Positions 2,867 through 16,158 of a stretch of DNA of 40,755 nt are shown here, piece by piece. Position 1 is the first letter of the stretch, and every line of letters begins with the position of its first letter. The stretch spans positions 1 to 40,755 of the forward strand of contig JABFSP010000224.1 in assembly GCA_013140565.1 (NCBI GenBank), read 5' to 3'. Both the position numbers and the translations under genes were made by a program. Under the pieces are notes generated by a model that made no database searches, was not told the origin of the DNA, and was given only the letters and a program-made list of their open reading frames with translations. This stretch comes from Ignavibacteria bacterium. Its GTDB lineage: Bacteria > Bacteroidota > Ignavibacteria > Tepidaquicellales > OLB5.

Positions 2867-3748
2867 TTATTTATACAACTGATGCCATTTACCTACAGCC
2901 CAAACCTGTGAAACAGGCCTGATACGTTTGAACACACCAAAACCCTCAGCACTTCCATCATTATTTGTATTACCCTCAATAGTGGTTACTATACCTTTAA
3001 CCAGATCAATACCTATTATAATAAATACATGCCTTGCATTGTTTCGGCTTGGGGAATAAATATATCCGAAATCACCAATTTCAATCTGACCTTTTTTAAC
3101 CGATTTAAACCCTGCATTTTTCTTTACTGCAAAGTTTACATTATCGGGTGTATATCCACTACAGGTCCATTTATAATCATGTTTGAGCTGCTTTAAGAGC
3201 CAATTCATAAAGAACTGGCACCACGGAGCACCTGTAGATATTGCACCGCAACTTCCGATCCTTTGATATTCATTTACTCTTTTACCGCCATTGTTATGTG
3301 GTTTCTCTTCAACAGTACCGATTTCAGCCTTTGCGAACTTAATGACTTGAGTAATGAAATCAACTTCACCTGCAGCAACAGGTTCCGGATCCTGAATAGG
3401 AAATGTATCCGGTTTAATATTTACTTTGTACCATTCAACAAGCTCTTCATAATGATTAAGAACATACCAATCAGAATAATTGAATACGCCATCAATGGCA
3501 AAAGGATAATTGTTTTTGATATCATCCGGTATCGGCAGCTGATACAAAGTTACTGCATCCTGCACTTTGGTTTGAAATGATTCCAAACATTCCTGCGTGA
3601 CTTCACCGAAATAATCTGAATCATCCAATTCACGGACCTTTCCATCTAGGAAACAGGTACCATAACCAAGTTGAATTAACCTGGCTTTCATAGAACCAAC
3701 TTCGGGCATTGTATCACCCAGTTTTAAATCATATTTAAAAGGTAACAT
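2867..3748 (-). CDS. endolysin (peptidoglycan-binding + CHAP-like amidase)
   Basis: MLPFKYDLKLGDTMPEVGSMKARLIQLGYG (PG-binding-like) and GAPWCQFFMNW ... GDFGYIY...HVFIIIGID...IEGNTN (CHAP-like Cys/His layout); ORF caller start at 3811 probably too far upstream. Confidence 0.8.
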   Translation of the reverse strand: MLPFKYDLKLGDTMPEVGSMKARLIQLGYGTCFLDGKVRELDDSDYFGEVTQECLESFQTKVQDAVTLYQLPIPDDIKNNYPFAIDGVFNYSDWYVLNHYEELVEWYKVNIKPDTFPIQDPEPVAAGEVDFITQVIKFAKAEIGTVEEKPHNNGGKRVNEYQRIGSCGAISTGAPWCQFFMNWLLKQLKHDYKWTCSGYTPDNVNFAVKKNAGFKSVKKGQIEIGDFGYIYSPSRNNARHVFIIIGIDLVKGIVTTIEGNTNNDGSAEGFGVFKRIRPVSQVWAVGKWHQLYK

Positions 3749-5540: not shown

Positions 5541-6446
5541 TTATGGTGTATATCCCGGAACTAAATATTCAGTACCGTTTTCATCTTTTATTAAGAACCA
5601 TTTATTAGGTATAGAAAGATAAGTGGCTTCTGTTGTACCTATATAGCTTGATACTCCCAAACTTGCAGATGGAGTATTTACATATGAGGCTGAATTAATC
5701 CAAATGTTATCTGTTTTTATACCTCCATCACCACGCAGAGCAGTTAAATAACTTCCTTCTATTAGATTAATTTCTTCGCCTACTACATCACTGTTTATTC
5801 TAAGTCTTTGCGTTCCGTCTGAAGTAAATACAATCTGACCTGAATTGGGAGCGGTTATATGAGTATTTTCATCATCCTGCCAAGAATAACCGTTTCCAAT
5901 TGTACCGTTATTGTTATAGCCCATAACCAGCCCGGTCCCATCCCCAAGATACATTGCAGTTTGCTGAATCTTAATAGCATCTGCACTATCAGCTTGAATT
6001 AATAGAGTACCAGAAATGCTGTTAATTGTATCAACTGCGGCTTGCCTTAAAACTGTTATTCCTGTAAATGTATTTGAACTATCCTTATACGCATAACCAC
6101 TCAGATTTGGAGAGTAATAAACTGTATCAGCTGATACATCGTAGCTTATAAGCAATCTTACGGTGGCTGTATCTTTGCCATAAAATACATTTCTATTTAC
6201 GGCATATGAATAAAAACCATTTTCACCAACAGTGATTTGCCACAAAGATGTATCAATGGATGTGTAGTCGTATGTTAATGGTATCCTTAAGCTTCCTGCA
6301 GCAACACCGTTATACACGGTCCTGTTTACAAGTTCCTCATAAAATCCGCTTTTACTCTTAACAAGAGAAAAATTGACCGTATCAAGTGTTTGCCCAAATG
6401 CTTCTAAGCTAATGATTGAAAGAATTAAAATGATTATTTTTTTCAT
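5541..6446 (-). CDS. tail-fibre-like protein with Sec signal peptide
   Basis: Internal start MKKIIILILSIISLEAFGQ; beta-rich body in tail-fibre position. Confidence 0.55.
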   Translation of the reverse strand: MKKIIILILSIISLEAFGQTLDTVNFSLVKSKSGFYEELVNRTVYNGVAAGSLRIPLTYDYTSIDTSLWQITVGENGFYSYAVNRNVFYGKDTATVRLLISYDVSADTVYYSPNLSGYAYKDSSNTFTGITVLRQAAVDTINSISGTLLIQADSADAIKIQQTAMYLGDGTGLVMGYNNNGTIGNGYSWQDDENTHITAPNSGQIVFTSDGTQRLRINSDVVGEEINLIEGSYLTALRGDGGIKTDNIWINSASYVNTPSASLGVSSYIGTTEATYLSIPNKWFLIKDENGTEYLVPGYTP

Positions 6447-8774: not shown

Positions 8775-9272
8775 ATGAGAAAACCACTTGGTTTAAATCC
8801 TACAGGGATTAGTAAAAAATTTGTTATATCCGTTTTGATTTTATTCACTATATTTTTTATTATAGGAATAATCGCTGGCTGTGGTGATGATAATATCACA
8901 AACAACAATAACAATAATGGCAATACTGAAAACTTGATATTCAGCAAAGACTCCATAGCTGTTAACGGAAGTGGGCACCAGTTTGTATTGTTTATTGATA
9001 CTCTGGCAATTGATACCGGAATATTAAAAACAACATTTGATGTTGAAACAAACTGTGATAGTTTGTTGGATAATCCATGGATATACGTCACCGCTTTTGT
9101 ACCTAACGATACAATTACATACTTGCAGAAGAGCTTACCTATAAGAAACGGGTCATATACATTCTCATCGAATGTTACGATATCGCAACCTGTTGAGTTT
9201 GATTTCCGTTTGGAATACAATTCTACAACTCCGAAATTTATGAGATTTAAGAACATTAAAATTTATAATTAA
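8775..9272 (+). CDS. predicted lipoprotein (moron)
   Basis: Hydrophobic leader FVISVLILFTIFFIIGIIAGC with lipobox IAGC followed by Asn-rich linker GDDNITNNNNNN. Confidence 0.75.
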   Translation: MRKPLGLNPTGISKKFVISVLILFTIFFIIGIIAGCGDDNITNNNNNNGNTENLIFSKDSIAVNGSGHQFVLFIDTLAIDTGILKTTFDVETNCDSLLDNPWIYVTAFVPNDTITYLQKSLPIRNGSYTFSSNVTISQPVEFDFRLEYNSTTPKFMRFKNIKIYN

Positions 9273-10801
9273 GCTATTCTTACAGTTTGATATTGCGCTT
9301 TCTTACCGTTTGAACTATTACCCGCATCTCCACCACCATCTGCGAAATTATAATCCAGATCAAGTGATATTATGGAATGCACTTCATTTACCCCTTTATA
9401 AGGTACTGTAAAGGTATCAAACAGATCAGGTTCACTATTTAGTATTCCTGTTACACCCTGAACTGAACCTCTGTTTTTTAAAAGCACTTTTAACTCTTTT
9501 GCAGGTAATACAGCATTCACATTAACACAATTATCATATATTCCATAATCATTTGGTTCAGGTATGTACTGGTTACAGAATAATCTATGAGGTGCAATGC
9601 GGCTGTTACTTCTGTTTGTTACACTCCAATCCTTGTAAATCCGGCTATTCATAAACTTCAAAGAATATTCCTGACCTGCTGAATTAGTTAAATTTAGTTT
9701 GAACATATCCTTTTCAACTATCAAAACATCATCAAGCTCAATCTGCCTAACAATTCCACCATCCTGAAAAACTGTTAGTTTCTTCTGATAAGCAGTCTCA
9801 CTTGAATCCAGAATGAAACAAGGATTAGGAGGACCGCCTTGTGCTGGTGGCAAAAAATTATAGTTATCGAAATTATATGTCAGGTTTTCATTAATTAATA
9901 CTCCATGTACAATATCATAGGTCCGTTCATTGGTGAAATATGTATCCGATAAATTATACCTATGATTTACCAGCAGTACCCAGTTCTTATCAATTTTGGG
10001 CAGCTGAGTTCTGTAATAATCCTGCGGTTTCATTACAGCAGCATTGCCATTTAAACGGCGCATTAATCTGAAAGTTAATGGTACCCGATCTCCACCTAAT
10101 GCCAGTCCCTCATAACTTTCAGGAACCTCAAACCTATAAACTAATCCCCAAAAGGCTAAGCCCCGAATAATGTTATATATTGTAAAATTATCATTACCTC
10201 CGGCACGTGACCACACAAGCAAGGACTTATTCAATATTATCGGCTGAACTCCAATATCCGTAGGAATATCATTCTGGAAATACATAAAAAACCTATTCAT
10301 CAATTGATTCTTTAAGTAATCCCAAAATGAAGTGTTATCCTGGAAGTAATAAGCTGGAACAAGTTTTTCTGCATACTTTTTCCATTCTATCATTGCATCA
10401 TATGCGATTACCGTAAGTTTAAAACCATCAGTTTTATTCGCATAACTTAGATCCATATTAATTGGTAGACTCACAAAGCCTGCCCATCTCTTCTTGCCGG
10501 AGTCTACAATGCAAAGCATTTTGATATCAGGAAAACTGGGATTGAAATTCAAAAAATCATCAAAGAAATCTGATATAGATTTGTTATCTGCGCTAACTTC
10601 GCGGCTTAATAATCCTAAAACAATTTCCATATCACCATATTGAATTTGTGAAAAATCTTCAGGTGATGTTAATTGCTTTTTAGCTCTTGGAAAACTGATA
10701 TGTTTAGTTACAACAAGGACATCATCCGGCGTTGGGTCAACAATATCAAAGTAATTTGTATGATTTGGAGCCATCCGAAATTTAGCAAATAGTACTTTCA
10801 T
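9269..10801 (-). CDS. distal tail/baseplate-like protein
   Basis: 510-aa ORF immediately downstream of tape measure gene. Confidence 0.6.
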   Translation of the reverse strand: MKVLFAKFRMAPNHTNYFDIVDPTPDDVLVVTKHISFPRAKKQLTSPEDFSQIQYGDMEIVLGLLSREVSADNKSISDFFDDFLNFNPSFPDIKMLCIVDSGKKRWAGFVSLPINMDLSYANKTDGFKLTVIAYDAMIEWKKYAEKLVPAYYFQDNTSFWDYLKNQLMNRFFMYFQNDIPTDIGVQPIILNKSLLVWSRAGGNDNFTIYNIIRGLAFWGLVYRFEVPESYEGLALGGDRVPLTFRLMRRLNGNAAVMKPQDYYRTQLPKIDKNWVLLVNHRYNLSDTYFTNERTYDIVHGVLINENLTYNFDNYNFLPPAQGGPPNPCFILDSSETAYQKKLTVFQDGGIVRQIELDDVLIVEKDMFKLNLTNSAGQEYSLKFMNSRIYKDWSVTNRSNSRIAPHRLFCNQYIPEPNDYGIYDNCVNVNAVLPAKELKVLLKNRGSVQGVTGILNSEPDLFDTFTVPYKGVNEVHSIISLDLDYNFADGGGDAGNSSNGKKAQYQTVRIA

Positions 10802-13332
10802 CCCATTGTTGCATTATTTCTCAAAGCCGCTTCAATTGCAGATGTTTCAAAAGCTTTTCTAAAGTCTATTGGATTTTTTATCTGGATTTGAACAATAGGT
10901 CTATTGCTTACAGATGCTGCAAAGCCTGAACCAACAGTATCACGATCACGAGCCATAAATGATGACATTTCACTGATAGAAGATGAAAATGCTCCAAACT
11001 TTTTAGCATCAAGAACATAACCGCTGGCAGTTGGAATAAATAGTTCTTTGCCATTTTCATTCCATTCATACATAGCTCCTGCAATTGTTCTGCCACCACC
11101 AGCAAGTCCGGGAATGGCTTTTAAAGCACCTGCGCCCGGAATAAAGTCTAATAATCCTGTTATAGTATCGATGGTGTTTATTAACTCAACAATAGCCTGT
11201 GTGATACTGTAGGCTGTTTGAAATGCCTGTATGACCTCCGCAGCGCCGCCACCCAGCACTTGGTCAATTTGTTGAACCAAGCTTAATGATTGTGTGAAAG
11301 CATTGAGGGACTCTTTTCCGATATTGTCCTGAATCTCCTGAAGTTTCCTGAAATAATTATCTTCAGAACCCTGCTCATTCGCATTGGCAGTTGATTTTCC
11401 CCTTGGGTTTTGCCTTTCTGAACGTGCATCAGGGCTTTCAGCATTTAGACCCTTGGCAATAAAGCTTGATAACTTATCTCTTAATTCAACTTCTTTTTCA
11501 AGTAATCTGACCAGCTGTTCTTGTTTGAGGTTTGTTCTATCAACAGCCTCTAATCTGAGAAGCTCTTTTTTAATTGTATCCGATATAAGACCGGGTTTTT
11601 TGCCCTCAAGCTTAAGTTGTAATTCCTGTTGTTTGATATTCAGATCAATCGATTTTAGTAATTCATCGATTGCATCCTTTTCCTCTTTATGCTGCTTTGA
11701 ACCGGGTGATTTGGTTTTTACTGAAAAATCCTTTGTACCCTGATTTGCAGGGTCATTCATAGGATCCTTTGTATTGATTTTCTTAAAGTCCGGTAATGCT
11801 GTAAAAGCAGTTATCAATCCATATAGACTATTCGTTGAACCGTCTATCTCACCACTCAAACCAGTGAATTCAAGAGCCAGAAATTGCACAGCATGTCCAA
11901 ATACAGGAACTCTATTCTTAAACTCCTCAAGGTTTGCTTTTAGATTTTTGTTTTCATGCCCTGTCTCACGGACCTTATTTATTAACTGGGTTAATCCTGG
12001 CAATACTGAGGTAACACCTGTAAAAACTGACTGACCTATTATCTTACCAGCCTGAGAAGAACTTATTCCTAAAGCATTAAAGGCATCTACACCCGGTATA
12101 ATCGACTGAACAATTGCCTCACCAAGTCCCTCTTTAAACTCACTGACATTGGTTTCAGCTATTTTCATCTTAGTACTTGCTGAATTCTCTACAGCATTAC
12201 CAAGATCCTGATACTTGCTTAAAATCAAATCAACCGCAGCGCCATTTTCAAGCTGTTCTTTTGTTAAATGCTTGAAATCCTGTTCCATCTTGCCATACTG
12301 CTTAACATTCCCCTCAAGTGTTTTATCAACATCTTTGAAAGATTGAGCGAAATCAGTCTTGTTGACAATAGACATAATGCGCGCAGCCTTAATCATCTTT
12401 TGCATCATTTCCTCACCGCGACCCTGAGCAACGGCGTATGCAAGCAGTGATTCTATTTGTTCATCAGGAATACCGAATTTTTTCTGTGATTCTTCACTAA
12501 GTTTTACAAGTCTGTTATACTGTTCAGTGTTACCATGAGTTACAGCCTGAAGCTGCAATAATGCATCTTCCTGTTCACCATATGCGGTCACACTCTGACG
12601 TGCTAATGAAATAGCCTGTGTGATTGCCATTGTCACACCGTAGTAACCTAAAGCCTGTTTGGATAAGCTGCTAATTTGATTTGTAATGGAAGATGAAGAT
12701 GAATCCAGAGCAGTCTTGAATTCACCACCGATTTTTTGAGATAAACTTCTGACATCAACACCTGAGGCTGTTAATTGAGCACGGTATCTATTTAAAAGAG
12801 AACCAGTCTGGATAAACTGTTCTGAACCAGGTAACATCCCAGCCTGTTTATTAGCAACCTGCTTATAATAAGCCTCAGAACCGATATCACCAGCTAATTT
12901 TGTTCGTGGTGCATTCTTAATCTCACGATCATACTGTTTTTGTGCCCGTTCTTTTTCCTTGAGATTTGATTTGAACTCAGCTAAATCTTTACTGCGCAGC
13001 AATCGCATATCAGCTTCCATAACACGAAGCTGTGATTCCATCAGCCTACGGAAAGCAATCATTTCTTTTATTTTTTCACGATTGCCCTGACGTTCAGCCT
13101 CAAGCTCCATCTGCTTAGCATGGTCAAGTAAACTCTGTTGACGTTTGATATCTGAATCAAGTAAGGATTGTTTTTGTTTTAATGATGACTTAAGATTTTC
13201 TAATTTTTCTTTATTAGCCTGTTTTTCCCGTTCAGCTGATACCTTTGGATCATCCTCATCCCTGACCTTACCAGTTGAACCAGTGGTTTTTTTCTTAACC
13301 TCTACATCTATGACTAATTTCTTTTCAGGCAT
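10798..13332 (-). CDS. tail tape measure protein
   Basis: 844 aa, long helical/coiled-coil N-terminus, hydrophobic C-terminal segment, correct position. Confidence 0.85.
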   Translation of the reverse strand: MPEKKLVIDVEVKKKTTGSTGKVRDEDDPKVSAEREKQANKEKLENLKSSLKQKQSLLDSDIKRQQSLLDHAKQMELEAERQGNREKIKEMIAFRRLMESQLRVMEADMRLLRSKDLAEFKSNLKEKERAQKQYDREIKNAPRTKLAGDIGSEAYYKQVANKQAGMLPGSEQFIQTGSLLNRYRAQLTASGVDVRSLSQKIGGEFKTALDSSSSSITNQISSLSKQALGYYGVTMAITQAISLARQSVTAYGEQEDALLQLQAVTHGNTEQYNRLVKLSEESQKKFGIPDEQIESLLAYAVAQGRGEEMMQKMIKAARIMSIVNKTDFAQSFKDVDKTLEGNVKQYGKMEQDFKHLTKEQLENGAAVDLILSKYQDLGNAVENSASTKMKIAETNVSEFKEGLGEAIVQSIIPGVDAFNALGISSSQAGKIIGQSVFTGVTSVLPGLTQLINKVRETGHENKNLKANLEEFKNRVPVFGHAVQFLALEFTGLSGEIDGSTNSLYGLITAFTALPDFKKINTKDPMNDPANQGTKDFSVKTKSPGSKQHKEEKDAIDELLKSIDLNIKQQELQLKLEGKKPGLISDTIKKELLRLEAVDRTNLKQEQLVRLLEKEVELRDKLSSFIAKGLNAESPDARSERQNPRGKSTANANEQGSEDNYFRKLQEIQDNIGKESLNAFTQSLSLVQQIDQVLGGGAAEVIQAFQTAYSITQAIVELINTIDTITGLLDFIPGAGALKAIPGLAGGGRTIAGAMYEWNENGKELFIPTASGYVLDAKKFGAFSSSISEMSSFMARDRDTVGSGFAASVSNRPIVQIQIKNPIDFRKAFETSAIEAALRNNATMG

Positions 13333-13778
13333 TATAAATCTTCAAGCAATATTTTATCAATATCTGATAATACTTTTTCAGAAAAATCAAAAAACGGTCT
13401 AGCAGGCATTTTATGAGTACCCTCTTGTAAATAATAAGCTATCTCATCCCTTTCATTTTCATTACCTATAAATACAATTCCATGTGTTTCTGATAGAATT
13501 TCATCCTTAAACTGGCTTAAAAGTATTCCGGTATCTAAAAAGGGTTTACTATGACCTTTTTTTCTTATTGTTACTGGAGATAATGGCGCTACTGGTGATT
13601 TTAAATAGGTAACTCCGGTTAATACATTTTCAAAAACATCTAAATGGATCGCTTTAAGAATTCTATCAAGTTTGATTTGACTTATACCGGGATTAATCTC
13701 ATTGATGTAATCATTGATTGCATCATCTATGTTTTCATATAATTTACCACGGCATCTGACTTGAAAATCTATATCCAT
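13332..13778 (-). CDS. phage morphogenesis/tail completion-like protein
   Basis: 148 aa; SPVAPLSPVTIRKKGHSKPFLDTGILLSQF and RPFFDFSE pattern as in virion morphogenesis proteins. Confidence 0.6.
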   Translation of the reverse strand: MDIDFQVRCRGKLYENIDDAINDYINEINPGISQIKLDRILKAIHLDVFENVLTGVTYLKSPVAPLSPVTIRKKGHSKPFLDTGILLSQFKDEILSETHGIVFIGNENERDEIAYYLQEGTHKMPARPFFDFSEKVLSDIDKILLEDL

Positions 13779-14044
13779 TATTTAAAGTAAGTTAATTGAA
13801 CGTACATACTTGAAACATATTCCTGAGCATTCCAAATTTTAACCAGGTAATAATCAAATTGTGTTTTTGTATCTGTGATTGTATCAGTATCCTGTGAATA
13901 TCTCTTTGCAATGTCATCTACCATTTTTTCAATGGTTAGGTTTTCGGGAATTCTATACTTGGGAGGCAGTTCTACTTTTATTCTTTTACCTTTGATTATT
14001 ATGTACTGACATTCTTTAAGAAAGTGACCACATTGCTGAAGCAA
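13778..14044 (-). CDS. tail assembly chaperone downstream part (likely expressed by -1 frameshift)
   Basis: No ATG start (TTG called); the frame is open upstream through the T7 run at 14080-14086 inside the preceding ORF. Confidence 0.6.
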   Translation of the reverse strand: MLQQCGHFLKECQYIIIKGKRIKVELPPKYRIPENLTIEKMVDDIAKRYSQDTDTITDTKTQFDYYLVKIWNAQEYVSSMYVQLTYFK

Positions 14045-14049
14045 GAGGT

Positions 14050-14511
14050 CTACATTTTTCTCAATGTCAAAATTTCGGTAAAAAAATCTTTATAAATTGC
14101 CATACCTGCCGTTCTAATTTCATTATAGATTTCAAGCTGTTTATCGGGTGTTTTCCCTTTCAACTTATCTTTAATGAATTTATACCAGTCAATGTCCTCA
14201 CTGGCACATGCAGTTAATATTTCTACAAGATTATCTACACCGCTTGGTTCGTTTTTGGGTTTATGGCTCAGGCTGAAAAACAGATTTTCATACACCTGCA
14301 GCAAACCTGTATAAGCCGTGTCATTTGACTCTTCCTGTGTTAAGCCGGCTTCCTGAATTGTGAACCTGCGAACACGTTCTGTGATATTTGCAGTAAGAAG
14401 TTTCCACCTCAGCTTTAATGGCTTGGGTGTAATTGATAAGCCTAAGACTTTAAATGTCTTAGGCTTATTCAAATACTTTTCAATACCTGAATTATTTCTT
14501 ATCTTTTTCAT
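14050..14511 (-). CDS. tail assembly chaperone upstream part
   Basis: ORF to 14601, more likely start ATG at 14511 (MKKIRNNSGIEKYLNKPKTF); located between tube candidate and tape measure. Confidence 0.55.
   Translation of the reverse strand: MKKIRNNSGIEKYLNKPKTFKVLGLSITPKPLKLRWKLLTANITERVRRFTIQEAGLTQEESNDTAYTGLLQVYENLFFSLSHKPKNEPSGVDNLVEILTACASEDIDWYKFIKDKLKGKTPDKQLEIYNEIRTAGMAIYKDFFTEILTLRKM
14080..14086 (-). other. candidate -1 programmed frameshift slippery site
   Basis: Minus-strand GAT TTT TTT ACC (U UUU UUU) in the ORF 14050-14601 frame; -1 frame has TAA just upstream and is open downstream into 13778. Confidence 0.65.
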
Positions 14512-14743
14512 CGGTACCTGAATTGATTTTATTTTCTGTTTTTTTTGTATCAATTGTAGCTTTGACATCAATCTTATTATCAACAACTTCATAAGCCTCA
14601 TTGAGTTGTTTTAGATTTGCCAAAGTATCTTCAGATACCGTTACCTCATCACCCGGCAAAACCTGTTTGTTAACAGGCTTTCCGTCAGTGATTACATCCA
14701 TGACTATGGATGAAAGAAGTTTTTTTATTTTGATGTTTGCCAT
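14492..14743 (-). CDS. small tail-region protein
   Basis: 83-aa ORF. Confidence 0.6.
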   Translation of the reverse strand: MANIKIKKLLSSIVMDVITDGKPVNKQVLPGDEVTVSEDTLANLKQLNEAYEVVDNKIDVKATIDTKKTENKINSGTDEKDKK

Positions 14744-14765
14744 TTATAATAAAATTTAATTGTTA

Positions 14766-15701
14766 TTAAATGCTTGGAACTACAACTTCCTCATCCTCAG
14801 CATACAGCTCACTTGCAGCTATATTATAATTACCTACAAGATCTGCTACAGGAAGTGTGTTATTTGTTGTGCTAATTGCTGATTTATTTTCAAGTATAGT
14901 ACCTTCAACTGTGATAGTACCACCCTGACGCTTCTCTTCCAGTAAATTAGGAAAGCGCATAACCCCGATTAAACGGTATGCCTGAAATTCAGAACCTCTT
15001 GAGGGACCAACATGCTGGAAACATTCCCAGTCATACAGATGCGCCTCTTTTGCAAAGAAGTTCTTTGTCCAGGTGTCATTCTGGTTTAATTCAGCTTTGA
15101 ACATTCCTTCAGCTGTTTCCTTTTTTGTTGTGAAAATCTTTTTGTTTTCACCGATGACATTAGTCTGTTTTTGACCTGCACTGACATCAACAGATAGCCT
15201 TGCAGGCATTAAATGCCACCCGTCACTGTAGAAAGCTGTAGCTGCAGCGCCAGTACCGGGGTCAAGAGCAGCAGGTGTAATAGTCACGGTTGGTGCACTT
15301 GTATAACCAGTACCGTTATTTGTCATTACTATCTTGACCACTTTACCATTTGATATCAACGCAGTAGCAGCCGCACCTGTGCCACCACCGCCTGTAAAGC
15401 CAATAGTGGGAGCAGCAGCATATCCTGAACCACCGCTGGTAACTTTTACACCGGAAACCTGACCAAAATTGAGATAAGCCTGAGTTGTTTTATCTTTGCG
15501 TTTTAACCACCAGATGTTAGAACCCTCTTCATTGAATGCAGCTGTATCATAGAAGTTGGCTACCGGTGCAAAAGCTAAAGAAAACATTCCTAAACCGATC
15601 CATTCAGGCTCAAACAAAACAGCCAGCGTCAAACAAAACAAGAGAAATCCTACCATGGATAGAATAATTCTCATTGGATTACCGAAAAATTTTCTTAACA
15701 T
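14766..15701 (-). CDS. tail tube candidate with N-terminal hydrophobic segment and Gly-rich repeat insertion
   Basis: Position before chaperone genes; IILSMVGFLLFCLTLAVLF; two GxGYxxAPT...GTGAAATA units. Confidence 0.5.
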   Translation of the reverse strand: MLRKFFGNPMRIILSMVGFLLFCLTLAVLFEPEWIGLGMFSLAFAPVANFYDTAAFNEEGSNIWWLKRKDKTTQAYLNFGQVSGVKVTSGGSGYAAAPTIGFTGGGGTGAAATALISNGKVVKIVMTNNGTGYTSAPTVTITPAALDPGTGAAATAFYSDGWHLMPARLSVDVSAGQKQTNVIGENKKIFTTKKETAEGMFKAELNQNDTWTKNFFAKEAHLYDWECFQHVGPSRGSEFQAYRLIGVMRFPNLLEEKRQGGTITVEGTILENKSAISTTNNTLPVADLVGNYNIAASELYAEDEEVVVPSI

Positions 15702-15711
15702 TTTAAGCTCC

Positions 15712-16158
15712 TTAAATGTTTATAGTTGTTATTAATTCAAATTCTGCATAATGACATAAAACTTTACAAGTCATTACATACCCTTTGTTTATTTGTGCCA
15801 TCGGAAATAATTTTTTTGCTTTGCCGTTCAGTTTACCGCTCTTATCAAAGGCAGCACAAATGCTTTCACATAAATTATCAAATGTTTTATCCGATTCATT
15901 CTCAGCATTTGAGCTGTAAATATATTTACATATCCATTTATGCTCTTTATCCCAGGATTGATAACTTTCAGTGATTGCTTTTGGAGTTCTTGTTAATTTT
16001 GTGAAAAAGAATACTTTTAGAACATTATCTGTTACTAAATTTTGAAATACCTCATCCCACATTTTGACATGTGGCATTTGGTCATACACTTCACCAATGT
16101 TAGGCACTGTTTCAGCAATAGACTTTATTGCGGTTCGTATTTCATCAATTGATGGCAA
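15712..16158 (-). CDS. tail terminator/completion-like protein
   Basis: 148 aa, position between connector and tube genes. Confidence 0.45.
   Translation of the reverse strand: MPSIDEIRTAIKSIAETVPNIGEVYDQMPHVKMWDEVFQNLVTDNVLKVFFFTKLTRTPKAITESYQSWDKEHKWICKYIYSSNAENESDKTFDNLCESICAAFDKSGKLNGKAKKLFPMAQINKGYVMTCKVLCHYAEFELITTINI

Follow-up and report, generated by a model that had tools for sequence, protein, structure and literature searches.

The tail operon of a prophage carried by an Ignavibacteria-group bacterium very probably produces, as judged from its sequence, two forms of a tail assembly chaperone by means of a programmed -1 ribosomal frameshift at a run of seven T residues. The 40,755 nucleotides analysed here (hereafter the window) constitute a whole contig (G000:C281), and its tail genes belong to a prophage of this bacterium, the genus of which also includes the MAG "Chlorobi bacterium OLB5". 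Frameshifting of the lambda G/GT kind is supported by the agreement of several lines of evidence, namely the phase of the heptamer, the want of a usable ATG in the second frame and a substitution pattern there that is typical of coding sequence, together with conservation in a close relative, recurrence of the arrangement with unrelated chaperones where the tape measures are related, and chaperone-like predicted folds.

The probable slip site and the two reading frames

On the minus strand, a 153-aa ORF runs from 14511 to a stop at 14052-14050 and ends with the codons TAT AAA GAT TTT TTT ACC GAA ATT TTG ACA TTG AGA AAA ATG TAG. The T7 run within it (14086-14080) forms an exact X_XXY_YYZ heptamer, T_TTT_TTT, that stands in the 0 frame as (GA)T TTT TTT, where the last base of GAT is X; this is exactly the phase that tandem -1 slippage requires. 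The heptamer lies within the overlap of the 0 and -1 frames, with 37 nt separating its start from the end of the TAG (14052-14050) that closes the 0-frame product; in a random 42-nt overlap built with the codons of this phage, the chance of an in-phase T7 is approximately 0.003. Every sequence statement that the preliminary description had made about this context matches the minus strand, and the -1 frame TAA that it had placed just before the run was found at 14092-14090, one codon 5' of it. This TAA bars entry into the -1 frame from any point further upstream.

Past the TAA, the -1 frame comprises 102 open codons, beginning as FFYRNFDIEKNVDLLLQQCGHFLKEC..., up to a stop at 13780-13778. The earlier assertion that this frame leads into an ORF devoid of its own ATG (13778-14044, 88 aa) also proved correct, the sole start-like codon at its beginning being a TTG (codon 14 of the -1 frame) and the earliest ATG being codon 54. 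Slippage would thus yield, beside the 153-aa product (14050-14511, minus strand, ending DFFTEILTLRKM*), a 244-aa fusion made up of 144 aa of the 0 frame and a T-like extension of 100 aa of the -1 frame (13778-14080, minus strand, YRNFDIEK...YFK followed by the stop), with KDFFYRNFDIEK as the predicted fusion-specific peptide at the junction.

The tail module, encoded on the minus strand, has the order tube, 83-aa ORF, chaperone, -1 extension, tail-completion-like ORF and tape measure. The tube (major tail protein) candidate, of 311 aa (14766-15701), is assigned mainly by position, with matches to virion structural PHROGs confined to residues 73-172. It is followed by the 83-aa ORF (14492-14743), which overlaps the chaperone start by 20 nt. 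The 148-aa tail completion or neck-like ORF (13332-13778) matches tail completion/Neck1 PHROGs (phrog_222, E 6.8e-8, and phrog_26), and it starts at an ATG that shares bases with the -1 frame stop (TAATG). The 844-aa tape measure protein (10798-13332) is recognized by its size, its position, its relatives and a weak Pfam TMP_2 match (E 0.013). Hence the position that had been likened to that of lambda G/GT holds as far as the pair lies between the tube candidate and the tape measure, but the 148-aa ORF intervenes and the pair, unlike that of lambda, does not adjoin the latter gene.

Conservation and selection in a close relative

The closest locus (L003/L013, LLZO01000024.1) comes from the above-mentioned OLB5 MAG and shares 85% DNA identity with the window over this stretch, with 90 differences in 734 bases. 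It retains the T7 run, the preceding TAA, the following TAG, the end of the -1 frame and both open frames, with amino acid identities of 94% for the first product and 81% for the extension. Substitutions at codon positions 1/2/3 number 8/2/30 in the 0 frame before the T7 run and 14/5/29 in the -1 frame after the TAG. This movement of the third-position bias from the 0 frame to the -1 frame across the site indicates selection at the protein level on both stretches, in the 0 frame for the first and in the -1 frame for the second. A lowered substitution rate around the site (3 in 94 nt) was not significant once the choice of interval was allowed for (permutation P 0.07).

Of the OLB5 contig, 10 kb was compared; DNA-level alignment is limited to the tail module (window 9110-15714), and the head protein of the window has no match in the OLB5 genome; the head genes represent a modular exchange. 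The OLB5 tube and tail-completion genes show frame breaks (at about 5999-6099 and 4231-4276 of L003, minus strand), which are either assembly errors or decay.

Recurrence in distant loci and alternative explanations

Tape measures were used to search 393 genomes of the class, which, together with one viral contig, gave 13 loci including the window; in these, ORF pairs lying upstream of the tape measure with their frames in a 0/-1 relation were scanned for mechanically. An in-phase homopolymer heptamer occurs at the pair junction in 11 of the 13, nine of the T type and two of the A type, as against 2 of 100 other -1 ORF pairs from the DNA of the same loci. T_TTT_TTT is found in phase in the window, L003, L010, L028, L029, L030, L031, L035 and L036, with a run length of 7 except for L030 and L035, where it is 8, whereas A_AAA_AAA is found in phase in L033 (10 A, 5579-5588) and L034 (9 A, 3188-3196). 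The two uninformative loci are L012, which is without a pair, and L032 (G036:C266), where an NN gap just upstream of a T7 in this region makes the frame undecidable. The conservation of the run that the preliminary description had put forward as a check is therefore seen both in the 85%-identical relative and, as an in-phase T or A run, in nine further loci. The chaperones of these 11 loci are mostly unrelated in sequence, and a -1 frame stop directly precedes the run in most of them.

The codon choice at the site also supports frameshifting: given Asp/Asn-Phe-Phe, all three codons end in T in 9 of 9 T-type loci, for which per-locus codon usage gives a chance of 2e-5, the loci not being fully independent (L003 goes with the window, and L010, L028 and L029 with each other). 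The first product bears the motif DFFxL(N/S)P at the site in five loci (L010 and L028-L031), and the window/OLB5 product has DFF alone. In four related loci (L010, L028, L029 and L030) the T run is followed, 9 nt from its first base, by another in-phase heptamer, T_TTA_AAT, whose role may be no more than to encode the conserved Leu-Asn.

The main rival to ribosomal frameshifting is slippage of RNA polymerase on the T7 run, such that some mRNAs with an altered number of U residues encode the fusion. It would have the same protein outcome and is plausible at the longer run lengths given above for L030, L035, L033 and L034; for the two A-run loci, transcriptional slippage is a fair alternative. 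Seven T residues are short for polymerase slippage, which moreover needs no codon phase, yet 11 of 11 runs hold the heptamer in the X_XXY_YYZ phase. This strict phase disfavors the explanation, as does the use of ribosomal slippage by lambda-type chaperone genes (PMC5009743), and we consider it improbable for the window.

A second explanation, to which we assign a still smaller likelihood, takes the 88-aa ORF as a separate gene translated by re-initiation at the TTG at 14044, after the TAG at 14050, with the T7 run being incidental. This TTG lies just past the stop and is kept in L003, and the missing Shine-Dalgarno (SD) sequence is no argument against it since most genes here are without one (it is present at 5 of 27 gene starts). 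But TTG is also an ordinary Leu codon and the run recurs in phase; furthermore, the nine other loci have no ATG, GTG or TTG in the -1 frame from the run to 8 codons past the 0-frame stop, a stop reached as late as 118 nt along the -1 frame. The first ATG of the -1 frame is at codon 21 or later in all 11 loci, with L036 having none at all. Finally, the notion that a homopolymer indel, through sequencing or assembly error or decay, has split one real gene might draw on the frame breaks of the OLB5 contig, but it hardly deserves credence given that unrelated loci from many genomes share the arrangement, and error in particular is very unlikely because the exact 7-T run and both frames are present in two assemblies despite 90 differences between them over 734 bases.

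Relatives of these phages were also sought more widely. Scans of viral contigs with the window chaperone, head protein, portal and tape measure recovered no relatives, a scan with the L010 tape measure recovered one, L028, and tblastn against named phages gave no match.

Identity of the probable chaperone

Searches of Pfam and PHROGs found no match to a known chaperone family above threshold, and sequence and fold searches of the PDB yielded no significant or meaningful match. The AlphaFold model of the window 153-aa protein, which is of low confidence (pLDDT 57), shows a beta hairpin followed by helices, as does the likewise low-confidence model of the L028 family. When the low-confidence window model was compared with a viral fold library, the top match, a weak one (E 0.02), was a tail assembly chaperone and 6 of the top 50 matches were so named, while for the low-confidence model of the L028-family 0-frame product 19 of the top 50 bore this name. 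Predicted fold, position and frameshift taken together make it likely that these proteins are tail assembly chaperones, an assignment that the fold by itself does not prove. The window chaperone represents an undescribed chaperone family.

RNA structures around the site

A possible stimulatory stem-loop (14070-14006, minus strand; MFE -19.5) starts 9 nt 3' of the heptamer. Its z-score against synonymous-codon shuffles is -2.4 in the window and -1.9 in L003, and the outer stem differs between the two; the evidence for a stimulatory role is only suggestive. A search for an SD-like stimulator across the loci found none that was consistent.

A near-perfect inverted repeat (14436-14468, minus strand), spanning codons 15-26 of the chaperone ORF, forms a strong RNA hairpin, with -24 kcal/mol for a 61-nt stretch (z -9). 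The genome contains it only once, and L003 retains it with U-A replaced by U-G. As it has no U tract, it is not a simple terminator, and it is perhaps an element acting on mRNA stability or on an expression step between tube and chaperone. A second strong hairpin (14645-14694, minus strand; -21.9 kcal/mol per 50 nt) lies inside the 83-aa ORF and is also conserved in L003. The chaperone region of most other loci likewise has its strongest hairpin about 260-610 nt before the slip site.

Proposed mechanism and comparison with known systems

Chaperone genes with two products generated by frameshifting occur in many tailed phages. In the window, most ribosomes would read from 14511 to 14050 and produce the 153-aa chaperone, which, by analogy with lambda gpG/gpGT, would coat the tape measure. 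A minority, with tRNA-Phe in the P and A sites on UUU UUU, would slip back one base on U_UUU_UUU (14086-14080) and continue in the -1 frame to give the 244-aa fusion, whose C-terminal part, by the same analogy, would recruit tube subunits.

The lambda heptamer is G_GGA_AAG, and thus differs from the U_UUU_UUU of the window. The two systems also differ in that family models reveal no sequence similarity between them and that the window has a tail-completion-like gene between the pair and the tape measure. They share the location of the pair between the tube and tape measure genes, as well as a long and a short product with a common N-terminus, with the T part being without its own start. Of the lambda products, which are made in a ratio of 30:1, gpG and the G part of gpGT bind the tape measure, whereas the T part recruits tube subunits (PMC5009743).

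Phage P2, the tails of which are contractile, and P2-like phages resemble the window in that a small tail gene, lying between those for the tube and the tape measure, has a T-run slip site close to its end (E/E+E' in P2). They differ in that the A-site codon is UUG in the P2 type and UUU in the window, and there is no family match. The chaperone slip site of P2 is TTTTTTG, with no recognized downstream structure (PMC3091744), and that of the P2-like Smp131 is T7G (PMC3931495). A search of the literature for phage tail genes with a slip site spelled T7 brought up no paper.

Further parallels are the other prophage pairs (L010, L028-L031 and L033-L036), which share with the window the in-phase run at the junction, placed after Asp-Phe-Phe in most T types, and a downstream tape measure related to that of the window or of L010. 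They differ in that the window/OLB5 chaperone shares just the Asp-Phe-Phe of DFFxL(N/S)P and, for L010 and L028, in that the end of the extension adjoins the beginning of the tape measure gene.

Taken across unrelated chaperone families, these junctions raise the rather doubtful possibility that prophages of the class Ignavibacteria prefer an all-U heptamer, in an Asp-Phe-Phe context and with no SD stimulator, a trait that may reflect host ribosomes or a tRNA-Phe with which, in contrast to E. coli, slippage on U_UUU_UUU is efficient. Constructs tested in E. coli slip less on U_UUU_UUU than on A_AAA_AAG (PMC5009743).

Significance

The -1 frameshifting of tail chaperones is of a well-known kind, and it is the present instance that is new. 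It adds an undescribed chaperone family, together with its frameshift site, to the prophages of a bacterial group on whose phages there seems to be little work. Where sequence similarity gives no lead, an in-phase slip site can direct attention to tail assembly chaperones, and the preference for U runs in unrelated chaperones offers a testable hint at host-specific slip sites.
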